From Arthrobacter sp. TMP15 (GTDB lineage Bacteria > Actinomycetota > Actinomycetes > Actinomycetales > Micrococcaceae), in assembly GCF_039529835.1 (NCBI RefSeq), contig NZ_CP154262.1:1-64000 (forward strand): a DNA stretch of 64,000 nucleotides, given 5' to 3'. Positions 40,637 to 52,970 of the stretch are shown piece by piece (position 1 is the stretch's first letter; the number at the start of each line of letters is the position of its first letter). A program made the position numbers and the translations under genes. Below the pieces are notes generated by a model, which worked only from the letters and a program-made list of their open reading frames with translations, did not search any database and was not told where the DNA came from.

Positions 40637-45923
<5,287 letters not shown>

Positions 45924-46168
45924 CACACACACTTTATAAAAACAAGTATGCTCGCGTTCACTATGTGGTTCCCAACCAACAAACCCACCCGTTTGTTCGG
46001 ACAGGAAACAAAAAAAACATGACACCACCAAAACCTATAAATCCCTAAACAAAGGTTTATAGAAATGGTAATTACATGTATAATAAAATAGAAATAGAAG
46101 TTGTTCATCACAAGAACACCCAACAAACCACCCACACCAACACAGTCGTGCTGGCCCGTGGGGAATGA

Positions 46169-46288
46169 GTTACGGTGGTCATAGCGTGGGGGAAACGCCC
46201 GGTCCCATTCCGAACCCGGAAGCTAAGACCCACAGCGCCGATGGTACTGCATTCGTGAGGATGTGGGAGAGTAGGACACCGCCGGACA
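46169..46288 (+). rRNA. rrf: 5S ribosomal RNA, copy 2
   Basis: Same 5S sequence as copy 1, followed by the same hairpin. Confidence 0.95.
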
Positions 46289-46333: not shown

Positions 46334-46440
46334 CCTCAATTTAACACACGTTTAAAGGCCAGCCCCACCCCAAGATGCGCACGGCACAGTCCCACAGGCC
46401 CGGGAAATGAACAGTCCCGGCCCGGATGGGCCCCATGAAT

Positions 46441-49400
46441 CTAGGAAGGTTCTCCTAGGACAATGTCAGTTGCGGTGGCCGGTGACCGACCAGTGTCAAG
46501 GAATCCAGAGACGTTTGCCTGCGGGTGCTTGATGATGTCTGTGATAGAGCCCAGGTGCCTTGACAAGTCGACCTTGTCCTCAGGGGCGGCCAGCAAGAGT
46601 TGGAAACCGAATTCCTGTAGAGCGTTGATGCCTGCGCCGGCGTATTCCGAGTTGGCCTGAATAAATGCTTCATCGATCATGACGGTGCCGTAGGTACTGT
46701 AACCCTGGGTGTCAATACCCAGCTGATAGGCAAGGGCGGCTCCCATAATAAAAGAGGTGAAACGCTGCCCCTCACCGCCTGAAAGTGTGCCGGGCTCCAA
46801 GCCGACTTCCACCTCACCGTTCGGACGGTGTTCGTTGCAGCTGATAGTCACATGCTGGCGTACGTCCAGCACTGTGTCCGCCCAATGAGACATGGTGGGA
46901 TCCTGCAGAGCGTTGACCAGTCGTTCCAATTGCAGATAGCTGGCCGCCATGGTGTCCTCGGTGGCCTTGGTGTAAGCATTCCCCAGGGCTTCTTTGAGTT
47001 CGCCTCTGAAGACTCTGGCCTCATCGGGAATAGTGGTCTTCACTTCGAGGCGCAGCCGGCTGCCTTTCTCAAAAGGTACGTCTGCAAGAATCTGGTTTAG
47101 TGGCAGGATTCGTTCCTCAATGGAACGCCGTTCCTCTTCCAGTAATTGCAGGAGATCTGAGAATCGTTCGTAGGAGCGGTTATTGAAATATTCTCTGAAT
47201 TGTTCCTGTCGCTGCGGTAGCCCTTCGGAAACAATGCGTCTGTACAACTCCTCATAGTGTTGCGCTGCCTCGGCACCAGTTCCATGACTGGAGCTCATGA
47301 GAGGGCCAAACTGGCGGGCAAAGCTCTTGAATATTTCGCTTAATGCTCCCTCGGCGCGGAACTGGCGCTCTTTGATTGTGGTGATGCGCTCACCCAAGTC
47401 CACGGTAGCGTGGCTCAGCAGAAGCTCCAGCTCATCCAAGGAGGTAGGACCGCCGTCGAGCAGATAGGGTGAAAACGCCTCCAGCGCCCAATCAGCCGCC
47501 CGGGCCGGCTGCATATCTCCTGACAAAACAGCACGAACGCTGCTGAGTTCCTTCTCGATCCCGGACAAGTCATGGTGCAGCACAGCCACGTTTCCCACAG
47601 CAGCCTCTAGATCTGTAGTGGCTTCAGCGAGAGAAGCACGCAGTTGGGCTAGCGTGGCACTGCCGGCAATAGTTTGATCCAGGGTGGTTTGTAGCTCTGC
47701 CTGACGAGCCACTAGTACGCCGGAGTCCAGCTGGTCAAAAGTGCGGACGTCTTCGGCAATCCGCTGCATGGCTGCGAGTCTTCTTGTCGATTCTTCCTTG
47801 GCCAGGCTGCTCTGCGTTGCGGCTACCGCTGATTGAGCATGATCGGTAGCAAAGCCTGTTACCTGCTGCTGCAGTTGGGCAATTTTCGCGACGTTGTTGA
47901 AGCCCAAGAGATAGTCGGAGGCGCTGATGGTTCGGGTGTCGCGTTCAAACACGGCGGCGCTGAGCTTGACTGTTCCCGCGCGGGAAATGGCCCTGGCATG
48001 TTGGTGCAGGGCGGCATCATCTGGTACGCAGGTAAAAGCGTAGTCTGCGGTGATCTTCTCGCGAAGCCATGACCCAGGCTCTGAGTCATGGAAGTCTAAT
48101 TTGTTCACCAAATGGTCTTGACCCGGCTGCTCCCTTTTTGCAGGTTGAACTGACATGCCAAGGTTTATCCAACGGAGTTTGCCCAGGCCGTCAAGTCCGT
48201 CGATTGCCGAGGTGACAGCGCCAATATCGCTGCCTCTTACAAGCAGTGTGGTGGCGAGTGAGCGCAGGACCTTTTCTGCAGCAGGGCGCCACACGATGTG
48301 CTCGGTGCCGATGTCCACGAGCTCACCTGCAAAAGGTAGGTCCTCGGGGGCCAAACCAGTAGCAGCGCAGATGGCTCGGCGAGCCGACGCGCTACGCGGA
48401 TCAATATTCGAGCCCCGACGTTGGTAAGAGTCAATTTCGGCCAGCAACGCTCTTTCCTGTGCCTTGAGGTTAACACTCGCCGCCACTGCCTCATACTCGC
48501 GTGTACGAGCGGTTTGTGTTTCTGCCAGCTGATGTTCGACGCCGGCTGCCGCAGCTGTGCGGGCTGCATCCAGTCCCTTTGCACTCCAGAAATACTCGAT
48601 GCGGACACTGTGAAGGTCCGCACGTGCTTCGGATTCAAGACGCTGCCGTTCAAGCAGGTCTCGTTTACCGCTCCGAATGTCCTTTTCCAGGCCTTCTATG
48701 GCCCGGCCGCCATGGTTGGCCTGCTGCTCCGACAGTGAAGCCACACTGGCAGCGAGGGCCTCTTTGGCCGTTGTTGCGGCCTTGATTTGTGTTTCTTTGT
48801 TTGCCCGAGCATCGCTAAGGGTAGACGCTTTTGTGGTGAGAAGTTCGTTTTGGAACTGGTGGCGCAACAGCGGGAGTTGGGTCTTCTGAAGATCAACTGT
48901 GCGGTTGTGCAACTCACTGAGTTCGTGGTGTTTCTGATGAAGTTCGGGCACCGGGGCTAGGGCGTCGCGCTGCTCGCGGGCATCCTCCAGCTGGCGATAG
49001 ATACCGCTGAGGTGGTTGAAGTCCTCAACAGCGGCCGCTGCGGCCGTCAGTGTGGACGGTTTATCCAGCACCTCATAACGGAAGAATCGGTTGACCCCTT
49101 TGTCTAGACCCTTTCCGTTTTGCAGTGTACGCAGCAGACTAAAAGCCTTGTCATTGTCAATACCGAGTTTGCGACGGAAGCGTTCCGCAAAGGTTCTGTG
49201 CACATCGAAAGTCTCCGCTCCCGGCAAGGCGGCATTTAAAGACGACGGCGAGAAGCGACGGCTGCCATGGTTTTCCAAGGCCGCTGTGTCCAACGGTCTG
49301 TCATGGATGACGTAGTGCTTGCCCACCTGGCCTTCGAGCCCGTTGGCGGGAAGGTCAAAAAGCGCAGAGATCGTCACGTGCCTCCCCAGTCCGTCCTCGA

Positions 49401-49752
49401 AAACAAGGGCGGTGGCAGACCAGGTAGAGCTGGGCCGTTGGTACATCACGCCGTTGTCCGTCTTGATCTTACGACCGCGCATGTAACTAAAAGTGGTCCG
49501 ACGATCTTTGCGGTTAGACGCCTCGTGGGCCGATTCATTCAAGCGTGGGGAAGCATAGAAAATATGCTGAATACCGTCGAAGAGTGTCGACTTTCCAACA
49601 CCGGGATGCCCCGTGAGCAATGTGCCGGCCCGGTCAACGTACATACTGTGGCGGCCGTGGAAAGTACCCCAGTTGATGATTTGGATCTGGCTCAGCCGAA
49701 ATTGACCGGGATTGATCTCTTCGCCGATGGGCAGGGTGGTTGCAATACTCAC
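46441..49752 (-). CDS. jetC: Wadjet SMC-like ATPase JetC
   Basis: JetC is the MukB-like SMC motor of the Wadjet plasmid-defence complex, which extrudes DNA loops. The 1103-residue protein has an N-terminal Walker A TGHPGVGKST (47-56), long Glu/Ala/Arg-rich coiled coils on either side of a central hinge-like region, the ABC signature LSGGEGQ starting at 990, and Walker B VMIDEA with Asp1027/Glu1028. The N-terminal QIQIINWGTFHG is family-typical. It overlaps jetB by 4 nt. Normally jetD, the nuclease, follows jetC; here only about 40 bp separate its stop from the second rRNA repeat, so jetD is missing at this locus. Confidence 0.9.
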   Translation of the reverse strand: MSIATTLPIGEEINPGQFRLSQIQIINWGTFHGRHSMYVDRAGTLLTGHPGVGKSTLFDGIQHIFYASPRLNESAHEASNRKDRRTTFSYMRGRKIKTDNGVMYQRPSSTWSATALVFEDGLGRHVTISALFDLPANGLEGQVGKHYVIHDRPLDTAALENHGSRRFSPSSLNAALPGAETFDVHRTFAERFRRKLGIDNDKAFSLLRTLQNGKGLDKGVNRFFRYEVLDKPSTLTAAAAAVEDFNHLSGIYRQLEDAREQRDALAPVPELHQKHHELSELHNRTVDLQKTQLPLLRHQFQNELLTTKASTLSDARANKETQIKAATTAKEALAASVASLSEQQANHGGRAIEGLEKDIRSGKRDLLERQRLESEARADLHSVRIEYFWSAKGLDAARTAAAAGVEHQLAETQTARTREYEAVAASVNLKAQERALLAEIDSYQRRGSNIDPRSASARRAICAATGLAPEDLPFAGELVDIGTEHIVWRPAAEKVLRSLATTLLVRGSDIGAVTSAIDGLDGLGKLRWINLGMSVQPAKREQPGQDHLVNKLDFHDSEPGSWLREKITADYAFTCVPDDAALHQHARAISRAGTVKLSAAVFERDTRTISASDYLLGFNNVAKIAQLQQQVTGFATDHAQSAVAATQSSLAKEESTRRLAAMQRIAEDVRTFDQLDSGVLVARQAELQTTLDQTIAGSATLAQLRASLAEATTDLEAAVGNVAVLHHDLSGIEKELSSVRAVLSGDMQPARAADWALEAFSPYLLDGGPTSLDELELLLSHATVDLGERITTIKERQFRAEGALSEIFKSFARQFGPLMSSSHGTGAEAAQHYEELYRRIVSEGLPQRQEQFREYFNNRSYERFSDLLQLLEEERRSIEERILPLNQILADVPFEKGSRLRLEVKTTIPDEARVFRGELKEALGNAYTKATEDTMAASYLQLERLVNALQDPTMSHWADTVLDVRQHVTISCNEHRPNGEVEVGLEPGTLSGGEGQRFTSFIMGAALAYQLGIDTQGYSTYGTVMIDEAFIQANSEYAGAGINALQEFGFQLLLAAPEDKVDLSRHLGSITDIIKHPQANVSGFLDTGRSPATATDIVLGEPS

Positions 49753-50450
49753 AACAGGCCCTCCTGTGCTGGGCCGTCGCTGGAGTCGGAGTCTAAGGAG
49801 TTGTGAGGCTCGTTCTTGTCCAGGGCGGAGAGATAAGCGGGAATTTGATCGATTGAGTCGAAAGGCAGAGCCAATGCCAGGGCGTTGCTGACTCGGTATT
49901 CGTTGAGCAGTTCGGTGGGCAGAATCAACTTTAGATTAAGAAGGCGAGCTAGTGCTGCGTCCGTTTGTTCATCCAAGCGTTTGTCATCAACTATGCCGGG
50001 CTGGCGGTGTTCGGCAAGTATTTCCCTGGCCCCGGCGCGAGAGATACCCACATCTGTGCCGGAGCCGGCATGGCGGTCCAGCAGTACACGAAGGCGCAAA
50101 GCCAACAGGGTCTCTTCGCGGCGCAACGGTTTGCGGGCAACGATCGGCTGTGTGTGAACGGCCTCAATGTCTGCTGGGGTTAGCAGTGCTATCTTGCGTT
50201 CAGAATCTACGCTCAACAACAAGAAGATCTCGCTGAGATACTGACGCAGAGACACGTCGTGCGTCAGGATTGTTGTCCACAAGGCGGGTTCTGCGCCGCC
50301 GTCAACATACGGTCCACGCAGCAATCGAACCAGCACCTGGCGCAACTCCAGCGGGAAGGAGCCGGTGTCGCCGTCAAACAGGGTTCGCTCGGTGCCCCTA
50401 GAGTTGCTAATTTTTTGCAGCTCCGGCGTTGGGTGTGAAGTGCCGCTCAT
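49749..50450 (-). CDS. jetB: Wadjet kite-like subunit JetB (DUF4194)
   Basis: A 233-residue DUF4194 protein, the MukE-like KITE subunit that bridges JetA and JetC. A winged-helix-type core is suggested by FPLELRQVLVRLLRGPYVDG, a region LRREETLLALRLRVLLDRH and an ARLLNLKLI segment; the C-terminal 35 residues are acidic and disordered-looking. It overlaps jetA upstream and jetC downstream by 4 nt each, so the three proteins are made in coupled fashion, as expected for a complex. Confidence 0.88.
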   Translation of the reverse strand: MSGTSHPTPELQKISNSRGTERTLFDGDTGSFPLELRQVLVRLLRGPYVDGGAEPALWTTILTHDVSLRQYLSEIFLLLSVDSERKIALLTPADIEAVHTQPIVARKPLRREETLLALRLRVLLDRHAGSGTDVGISRAGAREILAEHRQPGIVDDKRLDEQTDAALARLLNLKLILPTELLNEYRVSNALALALPFDSIDQIPAYLSALDKNEPHNSLDSDSSDGPAQEGLL

Positions 50451-51916
50451 GGTGAAGAGTCCTTAACGAACGTGAATAACGGGACGCGAGCTGTGCGCGT
50501 TGTGCCGTCAATTTGGGTGAAAGTCAGTGTTTCGGTGCGATCTGGGTCAATGTCGTTCACGAAAGTGTTTGCTGCCCCCCGGGCAGCAAGAACCAAACCC
50601 CGGATGGAGTTTATGTGCTGCAGATCAGCTGGCAACGAGGCATACACCTCATGCAGAGTGGCGGATCCATGGCGGGTTTCTCTGGTCCGCTCGATAGCGG
50701 CATGCAAGCGTGGCATATCGGGTGCCGCTGTTGCCGGGGTGCGGTGGATATCTGCATCGCTCAACGCCGGGGGAGCGGCAAGCTTAGGTGGTGGGACGTG
50801 GTCTTCGGGATTGAAAATGCCAAGACCCGCGAGAGTTTCAAAGTTCGGTGCGTATAACAGCGGTTCAACCACCCCTGCACGGGAACCAAGCGATGCAGCA
50901 GCCACAGCCTGTTCGGCTAAATGGATGGCCTTGCGCAGCAGTACAGACTCTTTGAACTCGGCGGACTGGACATAGGCGTGCAGACTCTCGGAGAGGCGCC
51001 CATAAATGGCGTGTACCTCAGCAGCTTGACGGCGCATCTCGCGCAGCAAGGAGGCCAGATTTCTCCGCTCTTCCGCGCTGAGCTGACCGGTGAAGTCCCG
51101 CTCAAGCACCTCGTTGATTGATTGCCTGAAACGTCCCTGTTGTACCGGATCGTTGAGGAACTCGGTGAAACCTTGGAACGTCTCTCCTTCTGCCGTGCCG
51201 CGTAGTGCCAAGTCAGCGGCAAGCACCTGACCCACGGCAACACCTTTAGTGACTGAGGAGTCCATGATTTCTTGCCGGATAGAGTGCAGCATGACCTCGA
51301 CGCCGTCGCGCATCCGCTTGAAATCTGCCGGCAGACCAGCCGCAAGATCCAACACACTCCGGGTGGCGGCAACGGCGGAGTCCTCGGATAGTACGGCTGG
51401 ATTGGCGCCATTTCGCAGCGCAGTGATTTCATTTTCACGCTCAGCGATTTCAGCTTCGAGAGTGGCAATACGGGATTTCGGGTCGGGATCGCTTTGGCGT
51501 GAAAGCGCCTCAATACTGTTAAGCAGCGTGCTCAGTCGTGAGCTGTTCAAATTGGTGCGGCTGCCGGTCAGCGTATCCGTAAATGCCAGGACCCGGGCCG
51601 TGGAGGCAGTGGGTTCATAGAAGAACTTTCCGTCAACCATGGGCCGGGAAAGAAACTGGCTTCGCACCCAAGAATCGGCGTAGTTGGAAGCCTGCCAAGC
51701 CTCATTTAGGCTGAGGTTTTCATCGCGCAGTTCCTTCATGAATTCCGCTAAATCGCCGTGAAATTCCTCCAGCGGCATGCGTTGCCTGGTCGCCGTGAAG
51801 ACGGAGCGCAGAAATGCCACCGTCCAAGGGGACCCTTGTAGTAGTTTCCAGGCGGGGCTGGCCCGTAGTTCTTTTTGCGCGTGCCATTGCGCAACGGCAT
51901 TGTCAGTGAAGCGCAT
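50447..51916 (-). CDS. jetA: Wadjet kleisin-like subunit JetA (DUF3375)
   Basis: A 489-residue DUF3375 protein, the MukF-like kleisin that closes the JetC ring. The N-terminus MRFTDNAVAQWHAQKELR and the downstream WTVAFLRSVFTATRQRMPLE are typical. The middle is a long helical, coiled-coil-prone region (about 140-350) and the C-terminal part is a winged-helix-like domain. The ATG at 51916 follows a GAAAGG site; an upstream ATG at 51952 adds 12 unlikely residues. It is the first gene of the jetA-jetB-jetC operon, so the promoter must lie in the decayed region above it. Confidence 0.9.
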   Translation of the reverse strand: MRFTDNAVAQWHAQKELRASPAWKLLQGSPWTVAFLRSVFTATRQRMPLEEFHGDLAEFMKELRDENLSLNEAWQASNYADSWVRSQFLSRPMVDGKFFYEPTASTARVLAFTDTLTGSRTNLNSSRLSTLLNSIEALSRQSDPDPKSRIATLEAEIAERENEITALRNGANPAVLSEDSAVAATRSVLDLAAGLPADFKRMRDGVEVMLHSIRQEIMDSSVTKGVAVGQVLAADLALRGTAEGETFQGFTEFLNDPVQQGRFRQSINEVLERDFTGQLSAEERRNLASLLREMRRQAAEVHAIYGRLSESLHAYVQSAEFKESVLLRKAIHLAEQAVAAASLGSRAGVVEPLLYAPNFETLAGLGIFNPEDHVPPPKLAAPPALSDADIHRTPATAAPDMPRLHAAIERTRETRHGSATLHEVYASLPADLQHINSIRGLVLAARGAANTFVNDIDPDRTETLTFTQIDGTTRTARVPLFTFVKDSSP

Positions 51917-51958
51917 GGCAGGACCTTTCGGCAGGCAAAGAGCGGTGTTCATTCCATT

Positions 51959-52790
51959 TTAAGGCATGCGGCCAGCGTGGAGGGACGCCCCCAGTGGGTC
52001 CGGGGCACTTTGGGGCAACAGGATTTTGCTATTCAGCAGTGAAAGCCGAATGGCGATCTCCGGAGCGTTCTGAGCCACAGACTTTGGCCAGCCGTAGCAA
52101 GGCGGAACAGTCTCATCCAGTTGTTTGTGCAGCTTCTTGAGGTCTGCACAGGCGCCTTCGTCCGTCAGGTTGGACGAGCTCCTTGTAGTCCGCAGTGGTG
52201 GCGGGAAGTAGTACTTATGCGTCCTCCGTAGAAATGATGAACCCCTTGCCACCGGGATCTGTAGTGAGAACTCCGTTGGCAACGACATGGTCCGGCCACG
52301 CTGACCGTGCGCGGTTCTGTGGAACAGAGTTGGGTCCCACTAGCCCGGCTCGCTGGAGAAGGGAGATGTCCACCAATGGCAGGGGATCTTCAGCCCTGCA
52401 TGTTGTAGAGCGGAATGATGAGGATTTCACCAACGGGGACGTGCATGCCCTTGGCTACCGTCACGATCAAGTACTTTGAAGTCGCAGAGTAGTTTGAAGT
52501 CGCAGAGTAGATCGAGCAGCTCCACACCCGGGGTGGGGGATTCGATTGCTTGGATGCGTTCGCGCCACGGGCAGATCATGCTGGGCTCGACTTGCCGCCA
52601 TTCACAAAGTGCCTCCAGGCCAAGTTCCCTACCTGGTTGTGGTTGCCTTCTCCCCAGAACAGCGATTGCATCATCGAGTGCCAGCTTGGCGATGGCGTTT
52701 TCCTAGCTCAACAGGACACCGGAAACATCTTTCATGACCTGCTCGTGCGCGGCATAAAGTAGATCCAAAACATCCGCTGGGAACTATCCA
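51959..52790 (-). pseudogene. Decayed remnants of unidentified genes (one methyltransferase-like)
   Basis: This 0.8-kb stretch upstream of jetA has no intact gene but coding-like blocks in shifting minus-strand frames. The block around 52010-52190 contains LKKLHKQLDETVPPCYGWP, which resembles the C-terminal end of large adenine-specific DNA methyltransferases (type IIG or PglX-like). Further upstream (52440-52780) are blocks such as LGLEALCEWRQVEPSMICPW and a frame-shifted VPVGEILIIPLYNMQG, interrupted by a TAG and a frameshift. An 18-bp tandem duplication lies at 52475-52510. I infer a degraded accessory gene or two; the methyltransferase link is from memory. Confidence 0.45.
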
Positions 52791-52899
52791 CAGCGTGTGG
52801 TGAGAGTTACGCACAGAGGTGAGTGTCCGGCGTCGTACTTACGGTAGGATGGGTGAGTCTGTGCTGGTACCAAGATCACTCACGTAGTGCAATAGGTAC

Positions 52900-52970
52900 C
52901 GGTGCGGCACCGCAAATGAACCTCCTGTTACGGAAATGCCGTAACCGCCTAGACCAAAGGAGGTGGGTTC
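52900..52970 (+). promoter_or_regulatory. rpsF leader that can sequester its ribosome-binding site
   Basis: A 7-bp hairpin GTTACGG/CCGTAAC (52927-52945) is flanked by ACCTCCT (52920-52926) and the Shine-Dalgarno AGGAGGT (52958-52964), which are perfectly complementary. The leader can thus fold so that the rpsF ribosome-binding site is hidden. A CCG triplet follows the hairpin stem. Ribosomal proteins S6:S18 are known to bind a CCG-bearing hairpin in rpsF leaders of many bacteria, so autoregulation is likely here. A second small hairpin CGGTG-CGG-CACCG lies at 52900-52912. Confidence 0.5.

Follow-up and report, generated by a model that had tools for sequence, protein, structure and literature searches.

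A JetABC operon without recognisable JetD as a core component of eleven Micrococcaceae genera

Background

What does a Wadjet operon do for a bacterium in which its nuclease cannot be found, and how did the operon come to be without it? This question is raised by a stretch of 64,000 nucleotides from Arthrobacter sp. TMP15 (positions 1 to 64,000 of contig NZ_CP154262.1, assembly GCF_039529835.1), hereafter the window, in which jetA, jetB and jetC lie beside a ribosomal RNA (rRNA) operon and a gene for the nuclease JetD is not recognisable. A preliminary description of the locus had left three readings: loss of jetD through duplication or insertion of the rRNA block, a complex that works with a nuclease encoded elsewhere, or a complex that works without one, perhaps like MukBEF. 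The comparisons reported here favour the last of these, as a prediction. Complexes of the Wadjet group without JetD are already recognised in MukBEF and MksBEF, and the one described here is a new lineage of this known kind. New here is the evidence that one JetD-free JetABC forms a core clade in 11 Micrococcaceae genera, and that the lack of JetD is not caused by the adjacent rRNA. Among titles and abstract openings I found no publication naming this clade, which may well be contained in Data S1 of PMC7617805.

Results

The tight minus-strand operon of JetA, JetB and JetC that the preliminary description had recognised consists of three intact frames, with overlaps of 4 bp between neighbours:

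46441..49752, minus strand: jetC, SMC-like ATPase, MukB/JetC-like, 1103 amino acids
49749..50450, minus strand: jetB, KITE subunit, DUF4194, 233 amino acids
50447..51916, minus strand: jetA, kleisin subunit, DUF3375, 489 amino acids counted from the conserved ATG

The ATG at 51916 is invariant across 16 aligned orthologues of jetA, and a second in-frame ATG stands at 51952. Pfam confirms the identities of JetA (DUF3375, 1.9e-93, positions 2-474 of 474), JetB (DUF4194, 5.9e-25) and JetC (AAA_29, 4.9e-18, and SbcC_Walker_B, 4.5e-16), as does PADLOC, in which JetA1, JetB1 and JetC1 score 732, 264 and 1054 bits, each match spanning nearly the entire protein. The JetC motifs GHPGVGKST, LSGGEGQ and VMIDEAF, which I take to be Walker A, signature and Walker B, are as intact as first described and invariant in 16 aligned orthologues. 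Three components of Wadjet type I, the kleisin JetA, the KITE protein JetB and the ATPase JetC with its ABC motifs, are therefore present, in the form of a kleisin-KITE-SMC operon without MksG/JetD, as in a JetD-less condensin of the Wadjet group.

The fourth component of Wadjet type I, the Toprim nuclease JetD, was found neither in the operon nor elsewhere in the genome (3.72 Mb, two contigs, 99.98% complete). There are no matches in this genome with JetD_C (PF09983) or DUF3322 (PF11795), two models that both match in Corynebacterium glutamicum, taken as a positive control, and that a very divergent JetD would escape. A profile made from the JetD of related loci matches nothing in the window either, which agrees with the initial impression that no jetD-like frame lies there. 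The same holds for relatives. A collection of 53 loci, by record title mostly from Arthrobacter but also from Paeniglutamicibacter, Zhihengliuella, Zafaria, Specibacter, Glutamicibacter and others, contains JetA, JetB and JetC in every case and no JetD match on either strand (E <= 1e-3), with at least 1.5 kb of sequence past jetC in 44 loci and an earlier end in nine. In a set of 38 clade regions, which overlaps in genomes with the 53 loci, JetD is likewise not matched in any (35 have at least 1.5 kb past jetC, three have less).

JetD does occur in the genus of the window, where it accompanies a different JetA. Each of the 23 genus genomes encodes an orthologue of the window's JetA, which scores 302-331 bits with DUF3375; in 13 of them there is also a second JetA, clearly distinct from the first and scoring 425-442 bits. 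PF09983 is matched in 14 of the 23 genomes, in one of these (G015) only as pieces, and the 13 genomes with an intact JetD are precisely those with the second JetA. In three whole fetched regions (L062-L064), the second jetC is directly followed by the JetD gene.

For the family I sampled 245 Micrococcaceae genomes and assigned to the clade each JetA with at least 415 bits against the clade profile, the next lower match having 152 bits. The clade is present in 115 genomes with one match each: in 115 of the 117 genomes from 11 genera, and in none of the 128 from the other 21 genera. Two genomes of the 11 genera are exceptions, one without a clade match (G058) and one with a fragment of 69 positions (G123). 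JetD is found in 61 of the 245 genomes and in 38 of the 117. No PF09983 match is obtained in 78 of the 115 clade genomes, and JetD is co-resident in the other 37; where it shares a contig with the clade jetA (12 of 37), the two are at least 267 kb apart. Across 394 genomes sampled from the class, the score with the clade profile never exceeds 160 bits outside the family. Twelve of the 115 jetA rows were flagged for one stop inside the match, although the open frames in these rows remain close to the gene in length; in the two that were fetched (G008, L059; G031, L120), jetA is open for 488 and about 500 codons. Members of the clade are rare on mobile elements, with clade-like genes in two of 72,556 plasmid records, both Arthrobacter replicons (0.75 and 1.35 Mb), and a single partial phage match (38% identity across 25% of JetC). 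In Arthrobacter sp. ERGS1:01, the clade jetABC lies on a 754-kb replicon labelled as a plasmid (NZ_CP012477.1, L180). ScpA is encoded separately from JetABC. A record titled Sporosarcina beigongshangi REN13 (L132) holds a JetA 83% identical to that of the window and is probably mislabelled. Genomes of one genus (g32) carry short extra JetA-like pieces at a distance of a few kb from the complete gene (L078:13492-13794; G174:C1:260542-260745; G147:C1:251064-251450).

The genes of the clade are conserved and under purifying selection, as in a stable lineage. Across the 53 loci, Walker A is always recognisable (GHPGVGKS in 33, GDSGVGKS in 16, a close form in four), as are the JetC signature (LSGGEGQ in 36, MSGGEGQ in 17) and Walker B (DE[AC]F in all). 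The ratio of non-synonymous to synonymous substitutions (dN/dS, Nei-Gojobori) between the window and six congeners is 0.06-0.14 for jetA, 0.06-0.19 for jetB and 0.05-0.11 for jetC, values which are rough because dS is near saturation throughout. These ranges leave out jetC against L048, with dS beyond saturation, and the near-identical pair with L046 from the same species, in which very few changes give 0.17 for jetC and 0.35 for jetB and leave jetA undefined. For comparison, JetD-bearing loci show 0.06-0.18 and dnaB 0.016-0.018.

How the clade relates to other JetABC loci of the Actinomycetes was examined with quick, unrooted trees, supported by the Shimodaira-Hasegawa-like approximate likelihood ratio test only. 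In the JetC tree (67 rows), the 27 rows of the clade form one fully supported group, all without JetD, while the JetD-less rows outside the clade are intermixed with JetD-bearing ones, so that the label requires seven changes. The JetA tree (40 hand-picked rows, mixture model) again shows the clade as a single group, of 12 rows, and requires six changes. On this tree a single JetD-less clade is rejected by the approximately unbiased test (p = 7e-5), a value that is optimistic because the group tested was picked after the JetC tree; a sister relation between the clade and its neighbour clade was not used, as the JetC tree warned of joined long branches there. The class sample gave 66 JetA matches of near full length, after 17 weaker rows had been dropped; for JetD, 14 rows that were weaker or second pieces were set aside. 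Of the 66, 39 lack a JetD match within 12 kb, contig ends being ignored in this count. Only three of these 39 (G000, G031, G060) belong to the clade of the window. Taken together with the mixed labels in the trees, this indicates that JetD-less JetABC is common in the Actinomycetes, apparently with more than one origin. In other actinomycete families, too, JetABC without JetD is frequent, with neighbours that vary by locus (judged by eye; some resemble dnaK or leuS).

The immediate surroundings of the operon were responsible for the suspicion that an rRNA duplication had removed jetD:

40637..46287, plus strand: second 16S-23S-5S rRNA set (Rfam), convergent with jetC
46374..46440: gap of 67 bp separating the rRNA repeat from the jetC stop codon, too short for jetD
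51953..52962: interval between jetA and rpsF, about 1 kb, without an open reading frame of more than 110 amino acids

The adjacency of jetC and the rRNA repeat, which ends at 46373, is as first described, but the distance is 67 bp to the jetC stop codon and not about 40 bp. The window holds two tandem 16S-23S-5S sets (33.8-39.9 kb and 40.2-46.37 kb), nearly letter-identical and spaced by 6466 bp. Among 16 other fetched regions of the genus, 13 have an rRNA match downstream of jetC, none of them with a jetD in between as had been envisaged for close relatives, and the remaining three (L059, L060, L061) extend no further than about 1.5 kb past jetC; in one region (L054) the rRNA matches lie less than 3 kb past jetC. 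An assembly break concealing jetD was considered and rejected, as five relatives on contigs of more than 4 Mb (L047, L048, L049, L051, L053) show the same join, with jetC followed after about 0.1-0.6 kb by 5S rRNA. In 20 fetched regions from ten other genera, no rRNA lies beside the locus. The rRNA neighbour is therefore a trait of the genus that predates the strain, and as JetD is not found with the clade in any of the 11 genera, the comparison of genus and family contradicts an rRNA duplication or insertion as the cause of its absence.

On the other side of the operon, rpsF lies upstream of jetA in the window and in nine of the 16 genus regions, and a RecB-family nuclease-helicase in six, 50-150 bp from jetA in four and within 2.2 kb in two more; one region (L058) has neither. 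The latter gene, a fusion of RecB-family nuclease and DEAD-box helicase of about 1206 amino acids (near jetA in L048, L050, L052, L054, L056 and L060), is also found 1.5-4.2 kb upstream of jetA in five of the 20 regions from other genera. The genome of the window carries it elsewhere (G000:C1:3562783-3566451), and among 30 hand-picked JetABC-bearing genomes it is missing in six (E <= 1e-50). In five genomes of the rpsF type (G001, G003, G007, G011, G021) it lies on the same contig about 110-133 kb from jetA, a position that would fit the inversion or relocation of a segment. Clustering of the neighbours in the 20 regions revealed no gene common to all genera. With rRNA, rpsF and the RecB-helicase all varying, jetABC is retained as a unit amid changing surroundings. 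The interval between jetA and rpsF is, among fetched loci, complete only in the same species; cut in four pieces, it gave no Pfam match in three and one match below the cut-off (E = 0.035), taken as chance, in the fourth.

Discussion

The most likely explanation, which I hold with slightly better than even confidence, is that this JetABC derives from Wadjet type I, is inherited vertically in 11 genera without JetD, and acts as a loop-extruding accessory condensin beside SMC-ScpAB. This is based on its gene content, its intact motifs, the lack of a recognisable JetD, its persistence within the clade and purifying selection; loop extrusion, the absence of cutting and a chromosomal role are what I infer from them. 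As the ATPase motifs are intact and all three subunits are kept across 11 genera, the JetC motor, the JetA kleisin and the JetB KITE protein would be expected to bind DNA and to extrude loops driven by ATP. Without JetD the complex would not cut DNA, and it may serve the cell's own chromosome as an extra condensin, in the manner of MukBEF and of MksBEF from Pseudomonas aeruginosa. A housekeeping role seems the likeliest because nearly all genomes of its genera carry the clade, mobile records rarely do, and 37 of the 115 clade genomes also encode JetD.

Known systems resemble this complex in different respects. Wadjet type I (JetABCD; Escherichia coli GF4-3, P. aeruginosa PA14) has homologous JetA, JetB and JetC in the order A-B-C, whereas here JetD is not found and the distribution is core-like within its genera. 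The clade profiles match JetA and JetC of solved Wadjet complexes (best 2e-28 and 2.7e-79, respectively), and an AlphaFold model of JetB (mean predicted local distance difference test score, pLDDT, 76; predicted template modelling score 0.48) finds its best fold matches in JetB (8dk1_E and 8as8_C) and then in MukE; the JetA model was of low confidence (mean pLDDT 65) and was excluded from the fold search. MukBEF of E. coli is a Wadjet-group SMC complex without JetD (described as such in PMC7617805). However, MukBEF substitutes for Smc-ScpAB according to PMC10586767, whereas ScpA is present alongside the Micrococcaceae JetABC. MksBEF of P. aeruginosa is, by description, a three-subunit MukBEF-like complex alongside SMC-ScpAB. 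According to the same review it likely originated through JetD loss; its role in chromosome organisation is experimental, whereas that of the Micrococcaceae JetABC is predicted. MksBEFG of C. glutamicum has an actinobacterial kleisin-KITE-SMC core as well, but it includes MksG/JetD and is reported to act on plasmids (PMC7083940). Finally, a parallel in gene content comes from Paenarthrobacter lasiusi S21, in which a JetABC-only 'Wadjet' is tabulated beside a complete type I Wadjet (PMC11719660, Table 6); the available part of that paper does not discuss the missing JetD.

Several observations do not sit easily with an accessory condensin. The JetA and JetC profiles list Wadjet chains as closest, and no MukB or MukF chain at the cut-offs used. 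In C. glutamicum, MksB, which comes with MksG, is reported to be without visible effect on chromosome architecture (PMC7083940), so that action on the chromosome does not follow from an actinobacterial JetABC core. The count of 115 genomes is one of JetA; JetB and JetC were checked in the fetched loci. The separation of at least 267 kb covers only 12 of the 37 co-resident genomes, JetD and jetA being on separate contigs in the other 25. The distance from dnaA fails to separate the clade from JetD-bearing loci: where both share a contig, the clade locus lies about 60-960 kb away and once about 1.2 Mb (by hand), and about nine JetD loci lie within about 0.65 Mb. Moreover, an N-terminal segment of JetB, GDTG (LFxGDTG in most), is retained in 51 of 53 loci. 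According to section 7 of the review PMC10586767, an N-terminal IFDR motif of JetB contacts JetD; if the GDTG segment is this site, JetB may retain the contact. As a marker of lost JetD binding the segment (L, then F or W, then a GDTG-like run) was tried and rejected, being non-discriminating because similar segments occur in JetD-less and in several JetD-bearing loci, in a comparison in which 18 loci gave no JetB.

Among the other explanations, plasmid defence without cutting, in which JetABC would trap, compact or silence circular DNA in the way of Smc5/6, I consider unlikely. It would suit the Wadjet-I-like sequence seen with PADLOC and with the JetA and JetC profiles, and JetABC is, according to PMC10586767, the part of Wadjet that senses circular DNA. 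However, the clade is core-like in 115 of 117 genomes, whereas JetD is patchy, occurring in 38 of the same 117, and its co-residence in 37 of the clade genomes argues against both doing the same job.

I give little credence to a partnership of JetABC with another nuclease, be it a JetD encoded elsewhere or a host enzyme such as the RecB-family nuclease-helicase. The latter does lie near jetA in some relatives and elsewhere in the genome of the window, and the retained GDTG segment of JetB could be read in the same way. However, JetD is matched neither in the genome of the window nor in 78 of the 115 clade genomes, and the preliminary suggestion of a nuclease encoded elsewhere is thus not supported, in this genome or as a rule; the RecB-helicase is missing in six of 30 genomes and no neighbour is conserved across genera. 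That the locus is a decaying Wadjet remnant, stripped of jetD when the rRNA operon was duplicated here, is scarcely credible, since against the mere 67 bp between the jetC end and the rRNA repeat stand three intact frames, dN/dS well below 1, the lack of JetD with the clade in 11 genera and the rRNA past jetC in closed relatives too.

For the accessory condensin, a wider course of events can be proposed tentatively, with a probability that I would put just short of even: plasmid-cutting Wadjets of actinomycetes repeatedly shed JetD, and one JetABC became fixed in the Micrococcaceae as a housekeeping condensin, present alongside SMC-ScpAB and, in roughly one genome in three, also alongside a JetD-bearing Wadjet, repeating the path proposed for MukBEF and MksBEF.

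Conclusion

Automatic defence annotation can call such loci 'Wadjet' despite the missing effector, as in the table of PMC11719660. Since the JetD-free JetABC shares some cells with a JetD-bearing Wadjet, both states can be compared in one bacterium, which bears on the possible origin of condensins such as MukBEF from defence systems. The observations suggest that, in this group of soil bacteria, machinery of defence may have been recruited for housekeeping.

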